A DNA stretch of 64,000 nt from Oscillospiraceae bacterium (lineage in GTDB: Bacteria > Bacillota > Clostridia > Oscillospirales > Oscillospiraceae), in contig JAFYHU010000037.1 in NCBI GenBank assembly GCA_017538965.1, positions 33,941-97,940 on the forward strand. Direction: 5' to 3'. Positions 23,315 through 32,823 of the stretch are shown here, piece by piece. Made by a program: the position numbers and the translations under genes. The notes under the pieces are model-generated. The model was not told the DNA's origin. It made no database searches and saw only the letters and a program-made list of their open reading frames with translations. Every line of letters starts with the position of its first letter. The stretch's first letter is position 1.

Positions 23315-23383
23315 AGTTGTCAGGAGAATCTCTTGACAACTGACACGCAAAAAGTTGTCAGGAGAACCGTCCCCTTGACAACT
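23315..23383. repeat. RAYT-associated hairpin pair (3' side of transposase)
   Basis: Two hairpins lie side by side: AGTTGTCA/TGACAACT around GGAGAATCTCT (23315-23341), and AGTTGTCAGG/CCTTGACAACT around AGAACCGTCC (23353-23383). The second abuts the stop codon of the transposase gene. This is the arrangement expected of REP sequences beside their transposase. Confidence 0.8.
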
Positions 23384-23384
23384 T

Positions 23385-24122
23385 TTATGCTTTCAGAATC
23401 ACACCTCGATTGATCCCGGTGAGCCTCGCAATCTGCCGGACAGAAAGATGGTGTTCTTTGAGAAGCCGGATCGCAGCATCTCTTTCGGCTCTTCCCATTC
23501 TCTGAAGCTGTGTCCCGCTTTCCAGATGCAACTCTTTTCTTATGATGTTCTGCGCTTCGTTGTCCGACACGCCGGCCTTCTCCGCGATGTCCAGCGCTTC
23601 CAGATCTTCGTTGCTTCTGCTCAGTTCGAGAAACCCATCTATTCCATCAGTAATGGATAATACGATATCCGTTGAAACGAGATCCGGTTGTTCTACATAT
23701 TCATGCCAGCTGCTCCACGGGTATCCCTCCCGGCTGCAAATGCCTGCTTTCATTGGGTTATTGTGAATATACCGCACTGCAGCAAGAAGATAAGAATCAT
23801 CCGTAATCGGTTCGCTGCGGAAACGATCCTGAAACAGATGACCTTCCCTTTCATACTTCTCGTTGAAATAATGGGCATAGCTGCAGGAGAGCCGCTTCAT
23901 GATCCTTTCAAGGTTATCTTCGGCATGAAGCAGCAGATGAAAATGGTTCTCCATCAGGCAGTAAGCGATCAGTTCAAAAGGCTCTTCTTTCAGATACCGT
24001 CTCAAAGTATCCAGAAAGCGCACATAATCTTCTTTGTCCTCAAAGAGGATCTGTCTGCCGACACCACGATTTACAACATGATAATAGCCACTCTCAGAAA
24101 GGATTCTTGCGCATCTTGGCAT
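23385..24122 (-). CDS. REP-associated tyrosine transposase (RAYT, IS200-like)
   Basis: This 245-residue Y1-type HUH protein has the metal-binding HFH at residues 60-62 (MENHFHLLLH) and the likely nucleophile Y118 in RYIHNNP, the usual RAYT signature. A C-terminal HTH (SVRQIARLTGINRGVI) is present. RAYTs process single-stranded hairpins at REP sequences and are normally single-copy residents rather than jumping elements. Hairpins of the same type flank it (23315-23383 and 24162-24192) and recur between genes elsewhere in the window. The gene looks intact. Confidence 0.9.
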   Translation of the reverse strand: MPRCARILSESGYYHVVNRGVGRQILFEDKEDYVRFLDTLRRYLKEEPFELIAYCLMENHFHLLLHAEDNLERIMKRLSCSYAHYFNEKYEREGHLFQDRFRSEPITDDSYLLAAVRYIHNNPMKAGICSREGYPWSSWHEYVEQPDLVSTDIVLSITDGIDGFLELSRSNEDLEALDIAEKAGVSDNEAQNIIRKELHLESGTQLQRMGRAERDAAIRLLKEHHLSVRQIARLTGINRGVILKA

Positions 24123-24192: not shown

Positions 24193-24318
24193 TAACTATC
24201 CGCTTGGGACGGTTTTTCGACCGTTTACGCCAAAGCGCTTGCAATTGTGCCGCTTCTCCGATAAGATCAGATGCAGAAGAAACAGAAGCTCAAGCATCGG
24301 CAGAGACAGGAGGACGGC

Positions 24319-24519
24319 ATGGACGAAAGCATGAGCATCATCCATAGCGGCTGCCCGCTCTACAGCTGCCGTGTCTGCCGGACGAAGACCGGCTGGCGGC
24401 ATCAGCCCTGGTGCGAACTGAAGGAACTCACGGTTCCCGGCTGTACGGAATGCCGCTATCATGATATTGCCGGCGGCAGCTGTGTCCATCCTGCGATGAA
24501 GAAAGGCGGTGCGGTGTAG
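24319..24519 (+). CDS. Cys-rich microprotein of unknown function
   Basis: The 66-residue product from the ATG at 24319 has seven cysteines and several histidines, arranged CPLYSCRVC, HQPWC, GCTECRYH and GGSC, and therefore may bind zinc. I chose this start because AGGAGG precedes it; an in-frame upstream ATG at 24271 lacks such a site. It ends 4 bp before the LytTR gene and is probably its operon partner. I do not recognise the family. Confidence 0.55.
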   Translation: MDESMSIIHSGCPLYSCRVCRTKTGWRHQPWCELKELTVPGCTECRYHDIAGGSCVHPAMKKGGAV

Positions 24520-24523
24520 AGGA

Positions 24524-24994
24524 ATGAAGAATATCCGTATTCGCTTTGAACAGGTTCCCTCGCTTTCCGATATCGAGATCACGGTGCGCGCCTCCGAGCA
24601 GGACGCCGCGGTCACCGCGCTGATGGAGCGGATCGCCGGCGAAGAGCCGCATACCCTGACCGTTCTCGACGGCTCCGGCAACCTCCGCCTGCTCTCGGAA
24701 TCCGAGATCATCCTGGCCTCCGTGGACGGCAAGACCGTCCGCATCATCACCTCCGACGGCATCTGGTATTCCCGCCAGACCCTGCAGAGTCTGGAAGACG
24801 CGCTCGACAGCCGATTCTTCATTCGGATTTCGCGCTATGAGATCGTCAACCTACGCAAGGTCTCGCGCTATGACTTCACGATCAGCGGCACCCTGCGGCT
24901 CGAACTGGAGGGCGGCATGGAGACCTGGGCCTCCCGCCGCTGTATCCCGGAGATTCGCCGCCGGCTGAAAGGAAAGGGGGCTTCGGCATGCTGA
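24524..24994 (+). CDS. LytTR family DNA-binding regulator
   Basis: A 156-residue protein whose C-terminal 100 residues form a LytTR domain (LASVDGKTVRIITSDGIWYSRQTLQSLEDAL...FIRISRYEIVNL). There is no receiver domain. It is followed with a 7-base overlap by a DUF3021 membrane protein. This is the known LytTR regulatory system layout in which the membrane partner inhibits the regulator. The likely ATG is at 24524; a GTG at 24509 is possible. Targets may include the genes that follow on the same strand. Confidence 0.9.
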   Translation: MKNIRIRFEQVPSLSDIEITVRASEQDAAVTALMERIAGEEPHTLTVLDGSGNLRLLSESEIILASVDGKTVRIITSDGIWYSRQTLQSLEDALDSRFFIRISRYEIVNLRKVSRYDFTISGTLRLELEGGMETWASRRCIPEIRRRLKGKGASAC

Positions 24995-25446
24995 TGAAAG
25001 CTCTGCGCAGATGCGCGATCGGCTTCCCGATCGGCATTCTTGTGTCGCTCGCCATCTCCTTGCTCAGCTATGACGGGAAGCTGGTCTCCGACGTCCTGGT
25101 CGCCCGCGTCGGCAGCGAGACGGGCGCTCTGGTGCTGGATCTCGTTTTGTCCGGGATTTTTGGCGCTATCTGCATGGCCGGAACCGTGTTCTATGAGATT
25201 GAGCACTGGTCGCTGGCAAAGGCAACCTTCCTGCACTACGTGCTTATCATTCTCAGTTTCCCGCCCCTGGCGCTTTTCCTGGGATGGGTGTCGAAGCCGT
25301 CGGAAATCCTGATCATGACCGCTTCCCAGACCATCTGCTTTTTCCTGATCTGGCTCTTCATGTATCTGCGCTACCGGGCCGAGGTCAGGGAACTGAACGA
25401 GCTGAACGCGCGGCAGGAGCAGAAACAGAAGGACGGAACAGAATAA
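24988..25446 (+). CDS. DUF3021 membrane protein, partner of LytTR
   Basis: A 152-residue protein with four transmembrane helices and a charged C-terminal tail (RYRAEVRELNELNARQEQKQ), matching DUF3021. Such proteins accompany LytTR regulators and hold them inactive at the membrane. It overlaps the LytTR gene by 7 bases. The signal it senses is unknown. Confidence 0.88.
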   Translation: MLMKALRRCAIGFPIGILVSLAISLLSYDGKLVSDVLVARVGSETGALVLDLVLSGIFGAICMAGTVFYEIEHWSLAKATFLHYVLIILSFPPLALFLGWVSKPSEILIMTASQTICFFLIWLFMYLRYRAEVRELNELNARQEQKQKDGTE

Positions 25447-25503
25447 ACTCTGTCAACATAAAGCAAAACAAGAAAGAGATCAAAATTTGAAAGGAGAACC
25501 AAT

Positions 25504-25836
25504 ATGAGCACAAATTACGTCGACCTTGCAAAGCTTTACCGGGAAAAAATGGCCGGTCAGAGCATCACCCCGCTCTCCGATGAGGCAGTTGAGGAGGTCT
25601 CCGGCGGCCTCGGCGGCGCCGATGAGGCCACCTGCCCCTACTGCCACGGCAATATCACCATGACCAAGGTCAGCAGCCCCTACAGCGACGACTACTGGAC
25701 CTGCCCGAATTGCGGCGGGATGCAGATCCTCTCGGACGCGGAAACCATCGAGATGATCCACTGCCTCGAGGCCATGGGCTACACCGAATTCGATTACCCG
25801 GTCTGGTGGTCTCAGATTCAGAAGAACTTAAGGTGA
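25504..25836 (+). CDS. double-glycine-leader protein with zinc ribbon
   Basis: The first 35 residues read like a RiPP/bacteriocin leader ending PLSDEAVEEVSGG|LGG, the L-x-E-x-V-x-GG pattern cut by C39 peptidases. The remaining 70 residues contain CPYCH...CPNCG, a zinc ribbon, not a typical bacteriocin core. A strong AAAGGAG ribosome binding site precedes the ATG. It sits between the LytTR/DUF3021 pair and a lipoprotein gene. Related leaders occur at 35141..35362 and 54610..54816. No export ABC transporter with a peptidase domain is in the window. Confidence 0.75.
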   Translation: MSTNYVDLAKLYREKMAGQSITPLSDEAVEEVSGGLGGADEATCPYCHGNITMTKVSSPYSDDYWTCPNCGGMQILSDAETIEMIHCLEAMGYTEFDYPVWWSQIQKNLR

Positions 25837-25841
25837 TACGG

Positions 25842-26804
25842 ATGAAGAGGAAAACTCTACTTCCCGCCGTTCTGGCGCTCTGCTTCTGCCTGCTGCTCGC
25901 GGGCTGCGGTAAGGCCACACAGGATCTCCCTGCCGTCGAGACGACGCCCGCGGCGGAAGCGGCTCCCTCGGCCGAGCCTGCGGCTTCCGCGCCCAAAGAA
26001 GAGGTCGCGGCCCCCTCGGCCGAGCCGGAGGTCAAAGCGGCGGAAGAAAGCGCAGCGCCCGCTCCTGCCCCCGAACCGGAGCCGGAACCGGAAGAGGAAG
26101 TCTCCCCCTTCCTGGGCACCTGGAAGCCCTACTCCCAAGAGGGCAGCATCAGCATCAGCCACGACCAGCTCGTAGAGATGGGCTATGCCGACCAGATGTC
26201 GATCACTTTTGACGCGGACGGGACCAGCACGCTTTACATGTTCGGCATGACCAGCCGGGAATCCTGGACCGACAGCGGCGACGGCAGCGGTACCGCCACC
26301 GTCTCGGGCGAAACCTATCCCATTACCATCGAAAACGGCATGCTCGCGATGGATATGGGCACCTATGTCGCCTACTATGAAAATGCCGAGCGCCCCTCCG
26401 GCGGCGTTCCGGTTCCTGAGCCGAAGGCCGTCGAAAACGATACTGTCAAGCTGCCTTTGAAGTCTGAGGCGCCGGCCCTCCCCTTCACGCTCTCCAACGG
26501 TCTCAAGATTGACGAGCTGAGCGTCGTCCTTGCCGGCGGCAGGATGTGGAGCTTCGGGTACGCGCTTGAGAATTCCACCGGATCGGTGCAATCCTTCGAT
26601 CCCTCGAAGTTTGTGCTGAGAAATGCCGACGGGACCGCCGTCAGCACCTATGCCTCCTACTTGTCGGCCGACGAGGTGAAGCCCGGCGTCCCGCTGCGGA
26701 CTTCAGTCAACATCGGAACAAAAGACGCCCTGAACCTGGGCGATGAGATTTACTTCTTCTATGACGGCATCTTCCTCGGAACCGCCGTCGCAAGAGAGTT
26801 TTAA
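25842..26804 (+). CDS. lipoprotein with one lipocalin-like domain
   Basis: The start at 25842 has an AAGGTGA ribosome binding site and gives a lipoprotein signal with lipobox LLAGC. A Pro/Ala/Glu-rich linker (about 25-85) follows, then a 95-residue beta-rich domain with FLGTW...ESWTDSGDGSGT, and a second C-terminal beta domain of a DUF5067-like kind. The FxGxW and W(T/S)DxGxG domain also occurs twice in the exported protein at 27907..29376. It starts 5 bp after the leader gene, so the two are probably co-translated. Function unknown. Confidence 0.8.
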   Translation: MKRKTLLPAVLALCFCLLLAGCGKATQDLPAVETTPAAEAAPSAEPAASAPKEEVAAPSAEPEVKAAEESAAPAPAPEPEPEPEEEVSPFLGTWKPYSQEGSISISHDQLVEMGYADQMSITFDADGTSTLYMFGMTSRESWTDSGDGSGTATVSGETYPITIENGMLAMDMGTYVAYYENAERPSGGVPVPEPKAVENDTVKLPLKSEAPALPFTLSNGLKIDELSVVLAGGRMWSFGYALENSTGSVQSFDPSKFVLRNADGTAVSTYASYLSADEVKPGVPLRTSVNIGTKDALNLGDEIYFFYDGIFLGTAVAREF

Positions 26805-26855
26805 GATTCAGAAGAACCTGAGATAAAACAACGGCAATTTTCCCAGTGTTTCAAA

Positions 26856-26886
26856 AGTTGTCAGGAGAACCGTCCCCCTGACAACC
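26856..26886. repeat. RAYT-type hairpin between lipoprotein and TIR unit
   Basis: AGTTGTCAGG/CCTGACAAC around AGAACCGTCC. It lies just upstream of the promoter at 26889 and so separates the lipoprotein unit from the TIR unit. Confidence 0.8.
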
Positions 26887-26888
26887 TA

Positions 26889-26917
26889 TTGCAAGAGCGG
26901 CTGAAGTATGTTAGAAT
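26889..26917 (+). promoter_or_regulatory. promoter of the TIR pair
   Basis: -35 TTGCAA (26889-26894) and -10 TAGAAT (26912-26917) with 17 bp spacing, then AAGGAG 8 bases before the ATG at 26933. The TIR unit can therefore be expressed independently of the upstream genes. Confidence 0.65.
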
Positions 26918-26932
26918 ACAAGGAGCATCACC

Positions 26933-27130
26933 ATGGATAAAAAAACGCTGACCGCAATCATCCCGACCGTATCGCTGATCATCTTCTTCGTATGGGGCTG
27001 GCTGGACAGTTTCTCACACAGCTGGATCATCTTCCTTGTCTCCGGCGCGGCCATGGCCTACGTCTCGAACATGGACAAAGACGGGAAAGCCGATGAGAAG
27101 AAGCCCGAGAAAAAGGACGAGGACGAATAA
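26933..27130 (+). CDS. 65-residue two-helix membrane protein paired with TIR
   Basis: Two transmembrane helices (about 7-24 and 29-45) are followed by a charged Lys/Glu/Asp tail. The membrane part aligns along its length with the N-terminus of the next gene (TxxAxIPxVSxIIxFxWxxL, then a W-rich turn, a small-residue helix and S-x-M-[DE]-K). It looks like the anchor of the TIR protein without the effector domain. Good AAGGAG ribosome binding site. It may form mixed oligomers with, or restrain, its TIR partner; that is inference. Confidence 0.75.
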   Translation: MDKKTLTAIIPTVSLIIFFVWGWLDSFSHSWIIFLVSGAAMAYVSNMDKDGKADEKKPEKKDEDE

Positions 27131-27184
27131 GCCCCGGAAAGATCGGAATGTCTGCATCAGGCCGCAAAGGAGCTGCATACCATC

Positions 27185-27853
27185 ATGAACATGAAAACCG
27201 TCAGAGCTTTCATCCCCGGTGTCTCCGTGATCATCATGTTTCTCTGGGCTTATCTCGAGGGAAACTGGGAGCATGCCTGGCTGGCTGTTGTAGTCGGCGG
27301 CGTTATCATGACGACTCTGTCAAGGATGGAGAAAAACAAAAAGGAAGAGGAGGCCGCGGTGGCGGCGAAGGCAAAAGAGGAAGCCGAAGAGGCAGAGCAG
27401 GCCGCCGGGCCGGATACGCCGCACGACATCTTCATCAGCTATCGCCGTGACGGCGGCGAGATGCCCGCCATGCTGATCTTCCAAGCTCTGCAGGAGCGCG
27501 GCTACCGTGTGTTCTGCGATGTGGAAGTGCTGAACGCGGGGAAGTTCAACGAAGCCCTGCTGAACAGCATACGGGCCTGCAAGGACTTCCTGCTGGTATG
27601 CTCGCCGCACGCGCTGGACCGCTGCAGCGACCCGGAGGACTGGGTGCGTCAGGAGATCGCCGAGGCGATTCGGGACGAAAAGAACATCGTGCCGATCATG
27701 ATGAAGGACTTTCAGTTTCCCGAGACGCTTCCCGAGGAGATCGACTCCCTGCGCTTCTACCACGGTCTGACTCCGCAGCGGGAATTCTTCCGCGAGAGCA
27801 TCGACCGCCTGTGCGAGAAATACCTGCAGTCCAAACCGATCAAAAAGTCATAA
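27185..27853 (+). CDS. membrane-anchored TIR-domain protein
   Basis: Residues 9-23 and 31-44 form two membrane helices, 45-75 a charged, probably helical linker, and 78-215 a TIR domain: HDIFISYRRDGG (80-91), the alphaA and BB-loop region, and DWVRQEIAEAI (152-162). E157 in DWVRQE sits where catalytic TIR NADases have their glutamate. NAD cleavage and a defence or signalling role are family-based inferences. It lies 54 bp after a 65-residue protein homologous to its own membrane anchor and is followed by a strong terminator, so the two form a unit. Confidence 0.88.
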   Translation: MNMKTVRAFIPGVSVIIMFLWAYLEGNWEHAWLAVVVGGVIMTTLSRMEKNKKEEEAAVAAKAKEEAEEAEQAAGPDTPHDIFISYRRDGGEMPAMLIFQALQERGYRVFCDVEVLNAGKFNEALLNSIRACKDFLLVCSPHALDRCSDPEDWVRQEIAEAIRDEKNIVPIMMKDFQFPETLPEEIDSLRFYHGLTPQREFFRESIDRLCEKYLQSKPIKKS

Positions 27854-27862
27854 GCAACAAAC

Positions 27863-27890
27863 AAAACCGCCGGCGTGTGCCGGCGGTTTT
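27863..27890. terminator. bidirectional terminator after the TIR gene
   Basis: A perfect 12-bp stem AAAACCGCCGGC with loop GTGT and complement ending TTTT. It serves the TIR unit and the convergent exported-protein gene. Confidence 0.85.
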
Positions 27891-27906
27891 ACTGTCCGTA
27901 TTTGCT

Positions 27907-29376
27907 TCAGATATCGATCGGGCCGGCGGATGTCAGGACCGGTTCCGTCGTTTCCGTCACGTCCGTCGATCCGAAATCAAACGCCGCCCAGGGATCTTCC
28001 AGTTCGATCTCCCAGCCGCTGCCCCGCACGGAAAGAACAACTTCGGTATCCGGCGCGAGGTCCTCGAAGCCGAAATAGTACTCGGCTTCATAGAGCTCTC
28101 CGTCGTTCCCGCGTACCAGATAGCGGTCGGGGTAGGAATACCCTTTCAGCTTCTCCACGATGACCCCGTGAACATCTTCCGGTTCCGGCGCCCTGTAGAA
28201 AAGGCTCCCAAGAATCTGCTCGGCCACATTCGGCGCATCCTCGCCGTCCATCCAGAAGGACAGCTCGCCGAAGTCGTCCCCGGCAGCAAACAGGCAGTTT
28301 ACCACCCGGTAATCGATGCCGTCATACTGTTCTTTGGAGGTGTAGAAGCAGACGGGAATGCCGTTTATCTCGGTGCTTTCAAAGCGGTCCGAGCCGTACT
28401 GCTTTGCCTCAATCGCCACATACTCCGTCAGCGTGCGCCCGTTCGACCCGTACTGATAGACGTCAAAGTCCAGCAGATGCTCGCTGCTGCGATAATAGGC
28501 AATCATGTCGTCCTGCCGCTGCTCCTTGGTGACCTCTCCCTGAACATAGTCCCCGGGAACCACAACACAGTATCCGGTCGTGCCAACGGGCACGATCTTT
28601 TCATAGCGCATCACGCGGTCGGAGCCTTTGAGAATCAGGAGCCCGTCTTCCATGGAGCAGTCCCACTTCTCGCCGTCGGCAAAAATCGTGGCGGTGCCGC
28701 TGCCGCTGTCGCTCCAGTTGTTCTGTTCGAAACCGTAGAAGTTGCAGAATTTGAACCATCCGTCGTCCATGAAGGTCAGGGTGTATTTGCCAGCGTAGTC
28801 ACGCCCCTTCTCCAGCTGCTCCGGGAGCGCATCGTGCGGGATGTCCAGCTCGGACTTCTCGCTCTCCATGGAATAGAAACGCCACTCGCCCACAAGCGGA
28901 GAAACGATGGCTTGCTGTTCGGGCATCTCAAACTGCGAGGCGTACTCCTCCAGGATCGGCGGAATGCCCGCGGTCGAATCGTCGGCGCTCGTATCGGAGG
29001 GTTCGAACACGCCGACGCCGTTCCCCAGATCCATCCGCAGGAAGCCGTCCTGCACGCTCATGGGATAGGACTCGCCCTCCACGCCGAAGACGCCGGTGCC
29101 GTCGCCGTTATCCGTCCACGTGCCCTCGGCGATCGCGCCGAAGACATTCATGCTGAAGCTGCCGTCGCCGCGGAAGCTGGTAATCATCCCGTTTGCCATG
29201 TCGAATCCCATCTCCGCCATGGCCAGGATCTCTTCATGGCTCATCGGAGCTTCGCCTTCCTGGGCATAGAACTTCCAGTTCCCGACAAAGGGAGAGGCGT
29301 CGTCCGCCGCGGAAGCCGGGGCCGCCAGAAGCAGGCAGAGGCAGACCGCCAGCATCAGAGTGATGATCTTTTTCAT
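27907..29376 (-). CDS. exported protein with two lipocalin-like domains
   Basis: A 489-residue protein with a classical signal peptide (MKKIITLMLAVCLCLLLAAP, cut after ASA). Two beta-rich domains follow: FVGNWKFYAQEG...GTWTDNGDGTG (about 28-120) and LVGEWRFYSMES...NNWSDSGSGT (about 160-260), then a third unrelated part. The first two are homologous to the domain in the lipoprotein at 25842. AGGAGG precedes the ATG. It converges on the TIR gene across a shared terminator. Function unknown; ligand binding is plausible for a lipocalin-like fold. Confidence 0.8.
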   Translation of the reverse strand: MKKIITLMLAVCLCLLLAAPASAADDASPFVGNWKFYAQEGEAPMSHEEILAMAEMGFDMANGMITSFRGDGSFSMNVFGAIAEGTWTDNGDGTGVFGVEGESYPMSVQDGFLRMDLGNGVGVFEPSDTSADDSTAGIPPILEEYASQFEMPEQQAIVSPLVGEWRFYSMESEKSELDIPHDALPEQLEKGRDYAGKYTLTFMDDGWFKFCNFYGFEQNNWSDSGSGTATIFADGEKWDCSMEDGLLILKGSDRVMRYEKIVPVGTTGYCVVVPGDYVQGEVTKEQRQDDMIAYYRSSEHLLDFDVYQYGSNGRTLTEYVAIEAKQYGSDRFESTEINGIPVCFYTSKEQYDGIDYRVVNCLFAAGDDFGELSFWMDGEDAPNVAEQILGSLFYRAPEPEDVHGVIVEKLKGYSYPDRYLVRGNDGELYEAEYYFGFEDLAPDTEVVLSVRGSGWEIELEDPWAAFDFGSTDVTETTEPVLTSAGPIDI

Positions 29377-29460: not shown

Positions 29461-29570
29461 CCAAGCGGCAGATTTTCCGTCCCAAGCGGTAATCGCACAG
29501 CAAGCCCCTGCCGAGCGGCAGGGGCTTGCCTGTCAGGAAAGTTGTCAGGAGAACCGTCCCCCTGACAACT
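29461..29570. repeat. 110-bp composite repeat, left copy
   Basis: It combines a CCAAGCGGCAG...CCGTCCCAAGCGG module, an AAGCCCCTGCC/GGCAGGGGCTT hairpin and, at 29540-29570, a RAYT-type hairpin. A second copy at 32714-32823 has the same orientation and differs at only about six positions. The two copies bracket the reductase and lysR genes. Confidence 0.85.
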
Positions 29571-32713: not shown

Positions 32714-32823
32714 CCAAGCGGCAGATTTTCCGTCCCAAACGGTAATAGCACAGCAAGCCCCTGCCAGACGGCAGGGGCTTGCCTGTCAGAAAAGTTGTCA
32801 GGAGAACCGTCCCCCTGACAACT
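32714..32823. repeat. 110-bp composite repeat, right copy
   Basis: Same order and orientation as 29461-29570: CCAAGCGGCAG module, AAGCCCCTGCC hairpin, RAYT-type hairpin (32793-32823). Its last part is also coding sequence: it supplies the final seven codons and the stop of the anti-sigma gene on the minus strand. Confidence 0.85.

Follow-up and report, generated by a model that had tools for sequence, protein, structure and literature searches.

The window, the whole stretch of 64,000 nucleotides of an Oscillospiraceae genome that we have analyzed, carries a gene for a TIR protein with a predicted membrane hairpin at the end of a run of genes that resembles a LytTR Regulatory System (LRS). 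Direct repeats mediate the positive feedback of an LRS, which consists of a LytTR regulator and a membrane inhibitor (PMC6193735, in the parts of that paper considered here). We give roughly even chances to the reading that the TIR gene was added to an LRS locus specifically in this lineage, and that the LRS would control the expression of a membrane-held TIR enzyme. The anatomy of the locus is well supported; its function is what we infer.

The initial annotation described a unit of two genes, a microprotein followed by a TIR protein, and both reading frames are found where it placed them (26933–27130 and 27185–27853, 54 bp apart). What it did not describe is that these are the last genes of a run, all on the + strand, that starts near 24271. 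The run opens with a small Cys-rich ORF (24271–24519, with an uncertain start codon that could be at 24319), which has no Pfam match at 0.01 and lies upstream of LytTR in 9 of the 20 relatives tested. The Cys-rich protein is perhaps an undescribed LRS component. Next is a LytTR DNA-binding regulator (24527–24994, scanned as 24509–24994; Pfam LytTR at 1.7e-17), in which no receiver domain is found, LytTR at residues 60–153 of 161 being its sole Pfam entry at E-values up to 1. The regulator gene overlaps by 7 bases the gene for a DUF3021 membrane protein (24988–25446; Pfam DUF3021 at 2.4e-24), the putative LRS membrane inhibitor. Then come a peptide with a zinc-ribbon-like CxxC...CxxC part (25504–25836; weak zinc-ribbon Pfam matches, below cut-off) and what we take to be a double-glycine leader, and a lipoprotein with a lipocalin-like domain (25836–26804; Lipocalin_4 at 0.0012, below cut-off). 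The peptide, with its two CxxC motifs, could be exported or modified. The last two genes encode the 65-residue microprotein, a two-helix membrane protein of subfamily A, and the 222-residue TIR protein, in which a hairpin anchor of subfamily B (residues ~1–62) is followed by a charged linker and a SARM1-like TIR domain (~81–210). Convergent to the run is a gene for a secreted lipocalin-like protein (27907–29376, - strand; Lipocalin_4 at 0.00031, just below cut-off).

The two genes had also been credited with their own promoter and a strong terminator. A promoter-like site, TTGCAA-17-TAGAAT, is indeed present (26889–26917, + strand, 9 of 12 consensus matches), and no LRS-type direct repeat accompanies it at up to 3 mismatches. 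It starts 3 bases past a REP-like palindrome (26857–26885). The 128-bp gap before the microprotein gene, with a palindrome and a possible internal promoter, allows separate transcription. The terminator holds up less well. A terminator-like stem of 15 pairs lies between the TIR gene and the convergent gene (27860–27893), but it comes out of the scan as a - strand feature only; read on the + strand, its stem includes the T run, and a role for the TIR gene is therefore a reading by eye. Allowing 3 mismatches, the window has 5 copies of the REP-like palindrome, GTTGTCAGGAGAACCGTCCCCCTGACAAC (at 23354, 24163, 26857, 29541 and 32794); allowing 2, the genome has 11 matches to a related pattern. A Y1 transposase gene (23385–24122, - strand; Pfam Y1_Tnp) sits beside REP-like copies, as in REP-associated transposases.

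The microprotein belongs to a family with a limited distribution. Matches better than 1e-20, using an alignment that includes the window sequences, are found in 10 of 102 genomes of the genus, own genome included, and the own genome is the only one of the 102 with two family matches. Beyond the genus, the order (245 genomes) and the class (391 genomes) add one clear match each, G324 and G843 respectively, and further matches come from Lachnospiraceae and Eubacterium MAG contigs, some of them titled rumen. We compared 22 microprotein loci from 21 genomes, window included. Weak hairpin matches were left out, as were L131–L135, which are on the same contigs as L092–L096; L137 and L141 are one isolate. 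The microprotein is partial in L141, and in L094 it lies inside a longer frame. Genes for LytTR and DUF3021 are both present at 15 of the 22 loci, among them those of G324 and G843, outside the family of the window; in G843 the microprotein is divergent from the LytTR-DUF3021 genes. At the other 7 loci no such pair is found by tblastn at 1e-3, with contig ends close by in L092 and L140. Since the fetched loci differ in length, distant neighbours may go unseen. The microprotein is followed, in G292 and G228, by a gene (L014:1009–1359 and L016:1005–1355, both - strand) that resembles by eye a MazF-type toxin.

LRS direct repeats are mostly 12 bp apart and biased to lie 10 bp upstream of the -35 box (PMC6193735, in the parts considered). 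The window has this hallmark in front of the run: a direct repeat TCCGCTTGG-12 bp-ACCGTTTAC (24199–24228, + strand), and exactly 10 bp past it the -35 box of a promoter TTGCAA-17-TAAGAT (24239–24267). This repeat is weak when taken alone, as it is imperfect (6 of 9 positions) and 12 of 200 shuffles reach it. Perfect repeats occur at the same place in relatives, ACCGTTTAA twice in both G296 and G251, and CCGCTTGCG twice in G292. When the 102 genomes of the genus are searched with the repeat-plus-TTG pattern, there are 11 matches with zero mismatches, the window repeat being one of them. Ten of the 11 are at LytTR-DUF3021 loci and the remaining one is at a contig end in G228. Among those ten, 8 precede a LytTR run on its strand, one precedes the lipocalin-like gene of the window, and one is divergent from the run, in G204. 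Both zero-mismatch matches of the own genome are at the window locus. At up to one mismatch, the genus has 28 matches to the pattern and also 28 to the reversed control, counted likewise at up to one mismatch, so that only the 11 zero-mismatch matches carry weight.

The second of the two own-genome matches, ACCGCTTGG-12-GCCGCTTGG (29461–29490, - strand), is followed after 10 bp by TTGAAG-17-TAAATT. It sits 84 bases upstream of the convergent lipocalin-like gene, so this gene probably belongs to the same regulon. The window has one more LRS-like repeat pair, its third (32714–32743, - strand), which is near a REP copy and has, by eye, no promoter at the right spacing.

The signal is uneven among relatives. 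The rule of a repeat plus promoter gives a hit at only 7 of 13 LytTR loci, and shuffles reach it in 4 of 200 cases for L101 and in 19 of 200 for L137. Under that rule nothing is found in L095, L096, L097, L098, L122 and L142; the repeat itself is seen at up to 2 mismatches in all of these except L142. The five Lachnospiraceae loci with LytTR have the repeat pattern at 2–3 mismatches only. In G280 and G269, the repeat is ~1.5 kb upstream of LytTR, and not 0.31–0.34 kb; a 457-residue ORF between the two is seen in G280.

We now turn to the two hairpins. In the microprotein, two hydrophobic stretches are followed by a charged tail, and the TIR protein opens with a similar hairpin. When the microprotein is used to search the own genome (3.39 Mb, 94% complete), the TIR anchor comes out at an E-value of 1.7e-10, and besides the microprotein itself this is the only match up to E 10, with 3 candidates scored. 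A hairpin profile built from 16 relatives, both window sequences excluded, was run against the 470 ORFs of the window, and gives 94.5 bits for the microprotein, 77.7 for the TIR ORF, and 3.0 for the next. The anchor alone scores 79.2 bits; among 2000 shuffles that preserve composition segment by segment, the best reaches 27.2. The search and the shuffle control rule out generic hydrophobicity as the source of the similarity. By these sequence comparisons the microprotein and the TIR anchor are true homologues, as had been proposed.

Whether one is a copy of the other is a different matter. The microprotein had been described as an effector-less copy of the anchor of the TIR protein, and a tree of 23 hairpins does not clearly bear this out. 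The tree has two supported halves. The own microprotein groups with that of G293 (83/88), and the TIR anchor, flagged as a long branch, falls in the other half (97/96), where its companions are microproteins from G280, G324 and some Lachnospiraceae. A tree constrained to group the anchor with the own microprotein is worse by 12.3 log units and is not rejected (AU p 0.072; also 0.088). This split suggests that the anchor is of the same family and perhaps not copied from the neighbouring microprotein, and it makes a recent tandem duplication of the own microprotein less likely.

The TIR domain itself (Pfam TIR_2 at 5.1e-14) is closest to NAD hydrolases of known structure: its best PDB match is SARM1, at 4.9e-27, and of the 20 distinct solved sequences that match at up to 0.01, 19 are SARM1 or tir-1 NAD hydrolases and the remaining one is 8qlo, at 0.0081. 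In the first alignment block 49 of 98 residues are identical to SARM1, with the motifs FISYRR, DVE.L.AGKF and DWV.xE kept. The glutamate of NADase TIRs, for which residue E157 had been proposed, is in place: E157 aligns with the Glu of SARM1 DWVHKE, which we take to be the catalytic glutamate of the SARM1 TIR. The description of a membrane-anchored TIR with the NADase glutamate position is therefore supported at the level of sequence, and NADase activity would be the expectation. A SARM1-like bacterial TIR is no surprise, given that the SARM1 TIR branches within a mainly bacterial clade (PMC13142454, in the part consulted).

TIR domains are abundant in the genus, with TIR_2 matches in 68 of 102 genomes, up to 10 per genome, many of them in long frames, and 7 in the own genome; a single TIR neighbour could thus be due to chance. 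One of the own-genome paralogues, G000:C38 (L002:1441–3063), has a TIR 68% identical to that of the window; behind it come what by eye is probably a membrane helix and then a Peripla_BP_4 sugar-binding domain, in a receptor-like TIR architecture. The window TIR ends, by eye, just where the helix of this paralogue starts. Compared with the window protein, the paralogue lacks the hairpin anchor, and it has no LRS repeat match at up to one mismatch.

A second TIR gene appears at the syntenic locus of G293. This locus has the Cys-rich ORF, LytTR, DUF3021, the zinc-ribbon peptide, the microprotein and the convergent lipocalin-like gene, and it lacks the TIR gene of the window. Upstream of the lipocalin-like gene and on its strand there is instead an 884-residue ORF (G293:C106, L095:3450–6104, + strand) with a TIR_2 domain (1e-10) and after it a likely membrane helix (by eye). 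It starts ~310 bp past ACCGCCTGC-12-ACCGCTTAG-10-TTGCAA-17-TACAAT, the repeat being a one-mismatch match, and is ~1.6 kb from the microprotein gene. The lipocalin-like ORF lies 7 bases past its end, so that both may be co-transcribed. The tblastn comparison of loci missed this gene, which became visible in the ORF listing and in the TIR profile scan. That scan, with the TIR profile and single seeds, covered 24 loci, namely the window, the 21 loci of relatives that have a microprotein and two that have LytTR but no microprotein, and it found a TIR ORF in only two of them, the window and G293. With a uniform placement of TIRs in the ten genus genomes with a microprotein, at 12 kb each, ~0.13 such cases would be expected, and the probability of two or more is ~0.008, a value calculated after the observation and that ignores the kinship between the two genomes.

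Taken at its strongest, this second case would make LRS loci a recurrent landing site for TIR genes, with a membrane-sensing transcription switch under positive feedback that arms a SARM1-like NADase, and a family hairpin that ties the TIR to the switch. As a proposal, a TIR tied to the switch by a hairpin of the microprotein family would assemble with the microprotein in one shared membrane complex. We hold this extended version as tentative, and rather improbable as a whole. We consider equally doubtful a rival reading, in which the hairpin is a plain, interchangeable anchor, and the TIR an unrelated insertion that happens to sit at an LRS locus, is expressed constitutively, and is controlled elsewhere. 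The number of TIRs in the genus favors such a view, and so do weaker matches of the same hairpin pattern across the class, which are C-termini of HTH-type regulators (named by eye) and other membrane proteins. But the anchor is matched at 79 bits by a profile specific to the family, which is not what any hairpin would give, and the finding of a different TIR gene at this locus in each of two genomes also speaks against unrelated insertion, with the reservations made above about that probability. The hairpins with a W-rich pattern at C-termini of HTH-type regulators (L148–L160) suggest a wider regulatory membrane module.

Considerably less probable is the original proposal of a self-contained two-gene defence unit, in which the microprotein senses or restrains the TIR, and the pair acts from its own promoter by abortive infection. 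The short distance between the two genes and the promoter-like site fit with it, homologous hairpins could hetero-oligomerise, and the TIR resembles parts of Thoeris and retron TIR models, far below the cut-off where one is given. However, the anchored TIR is next to the microprotein at only 1 of the 22 loci, that of the window, and elsewhere the microprotein is kept at LRS loci without it. The initial annotation had named the lack of conservation of the microprotein beside a TIR in relatives as a result that would refute the unit, and this is the result obtained. We reject a dedicated TIR-microprotein pair, and conclude from these comparisons that the microprotein did not arise to serve the TIR as its partner. 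Moreover, the TIR protein has no match in phage records, and neither the TIR domain nor the microprotein family has matches in viral contigs. The four plasmid matches are each below 40% identity. A phage or plasmid origin appears less likely for these reasons. A search of genome contigs with the TIR gave no relative.

Finally, a bacteriocin-like cassette, with the double-glycine-leader zinc-ribbon peptide as the exported product, the microprotein as immunity, and the TIR as a suicide or immunity add-on, is very unlikely: homologues of the peptide are found at 8 of the 22 microprotein loci, window included, and LRS govern bacteriocins in S. mutans (PMC6193735, in the parts considered), but the full peptide is not detected at the other 14 (L094 has a partial match).

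The reading that we prefer, a TIR gene added to an LRS locus and controlled by it, draws on the LytTR and DUF3021 matches in overlapping genes, their co-occurrence with the microprotein, the zero-mismatch repeats, the SARM1-like TIR with its glutamate position, and the TIR gene of G293. Against it count the rare carriage of TIR genes (window type at 1 of 22 loci, any TIR at 2 of 24), the weakness of the repeat, the abundance of TIRs in the genus, and the possible separate promoter. According to this preferred reading, the conserved core would have three parts: a LytTR activator, the DUF3021 membrane protein by which this activator is presumably restrained, and the two-helix membrane microprotein as a protein of its own. 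Through its hairpin, the TIR protein would keep the SARM1-like TIR on the cytosolic side of the membrane. At rest, the DUF3021 protein would hold LytTR. An envelope or extracellular signal would release LytTR, the freed activator would bind both direct repeats (24199 and 29461), and the whole run, TIR included, would rise through positive feedback. The TIR would then consume NAD+, arresting or killing the cell, or make a nucleotide signal. A possible pairing of the microprotein with the TIR hairpin would either keep the TIR inactive or place it at the switch complex. The outcome may be phage defence, competition, or death by envelope stress.

If the extended version given earlier, with its shared membrane complex, were true, TIR-driven cell death would have a sensory route that does without a nucleotide second messenger. 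LRS are widespread and hardly characterised (PMC6193735, in the parts considered), and a TIR enzyme within an LRS run would give a directly testable output. It would also suggest that transcriptional control together with assembly in the membrane can gate TIRs in bacteria. The conserved microprotein at LRS loci goes unmentioned in the parts of PMC6193735 considered here, and no TIR is seen in their LRS description. No paper with both "LytTR" and "TIR domain" was found, which is weak evidence of absence since only the open-access literature was searched. In that literature, judged by title and start of abstract, nothing was on the topic of a TIR-microprotein pair, and "membrane-anchored TIR" matched a survey only.

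How does the locus compare with known systems? With Thoeris ThsB and other defence TIRs it shares the TIR domain, with partial matches to ThcB4 (3.9e-11, 42 bits, for a cut-off of 220) and to ThsB models. No ThsA effector gene is present among the 7 genes scanned in 24509–29376, and these 7 list no match to SIR2, SLOG or macro domains either. With no ThsA found there and the TIR far below the model cut-offs, membership in Thoeris is rejected. Compared to SARM1, the window protein is without ARM or SAM domains, and has instead the two-helix membrane hairpin at its N-terminus. Among LRS, the comparison is with HdrRM and BrsRM of S. mutans, which control bacteriocins and a suicide-like death pathway, and with the LytTR-DUF3021 operon of S. 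aureus, a named LRS example (all from the parts of PMC6193735 considered). LRS and SARM1-like TIRs are each already known. The window has the same order of LytTR and then a membrane protein, and the same repeat spacing as the described LRS, with membrane inhibition and positive autoregulation putative by analogy; to the LRS as described in those parts it adds the Cys-rich ORF, the double-glycine-leader zinc-ribbon peptide and the microprotein, which are shared with relatives, and the hairpin-anchored TIR, which is in the window only.
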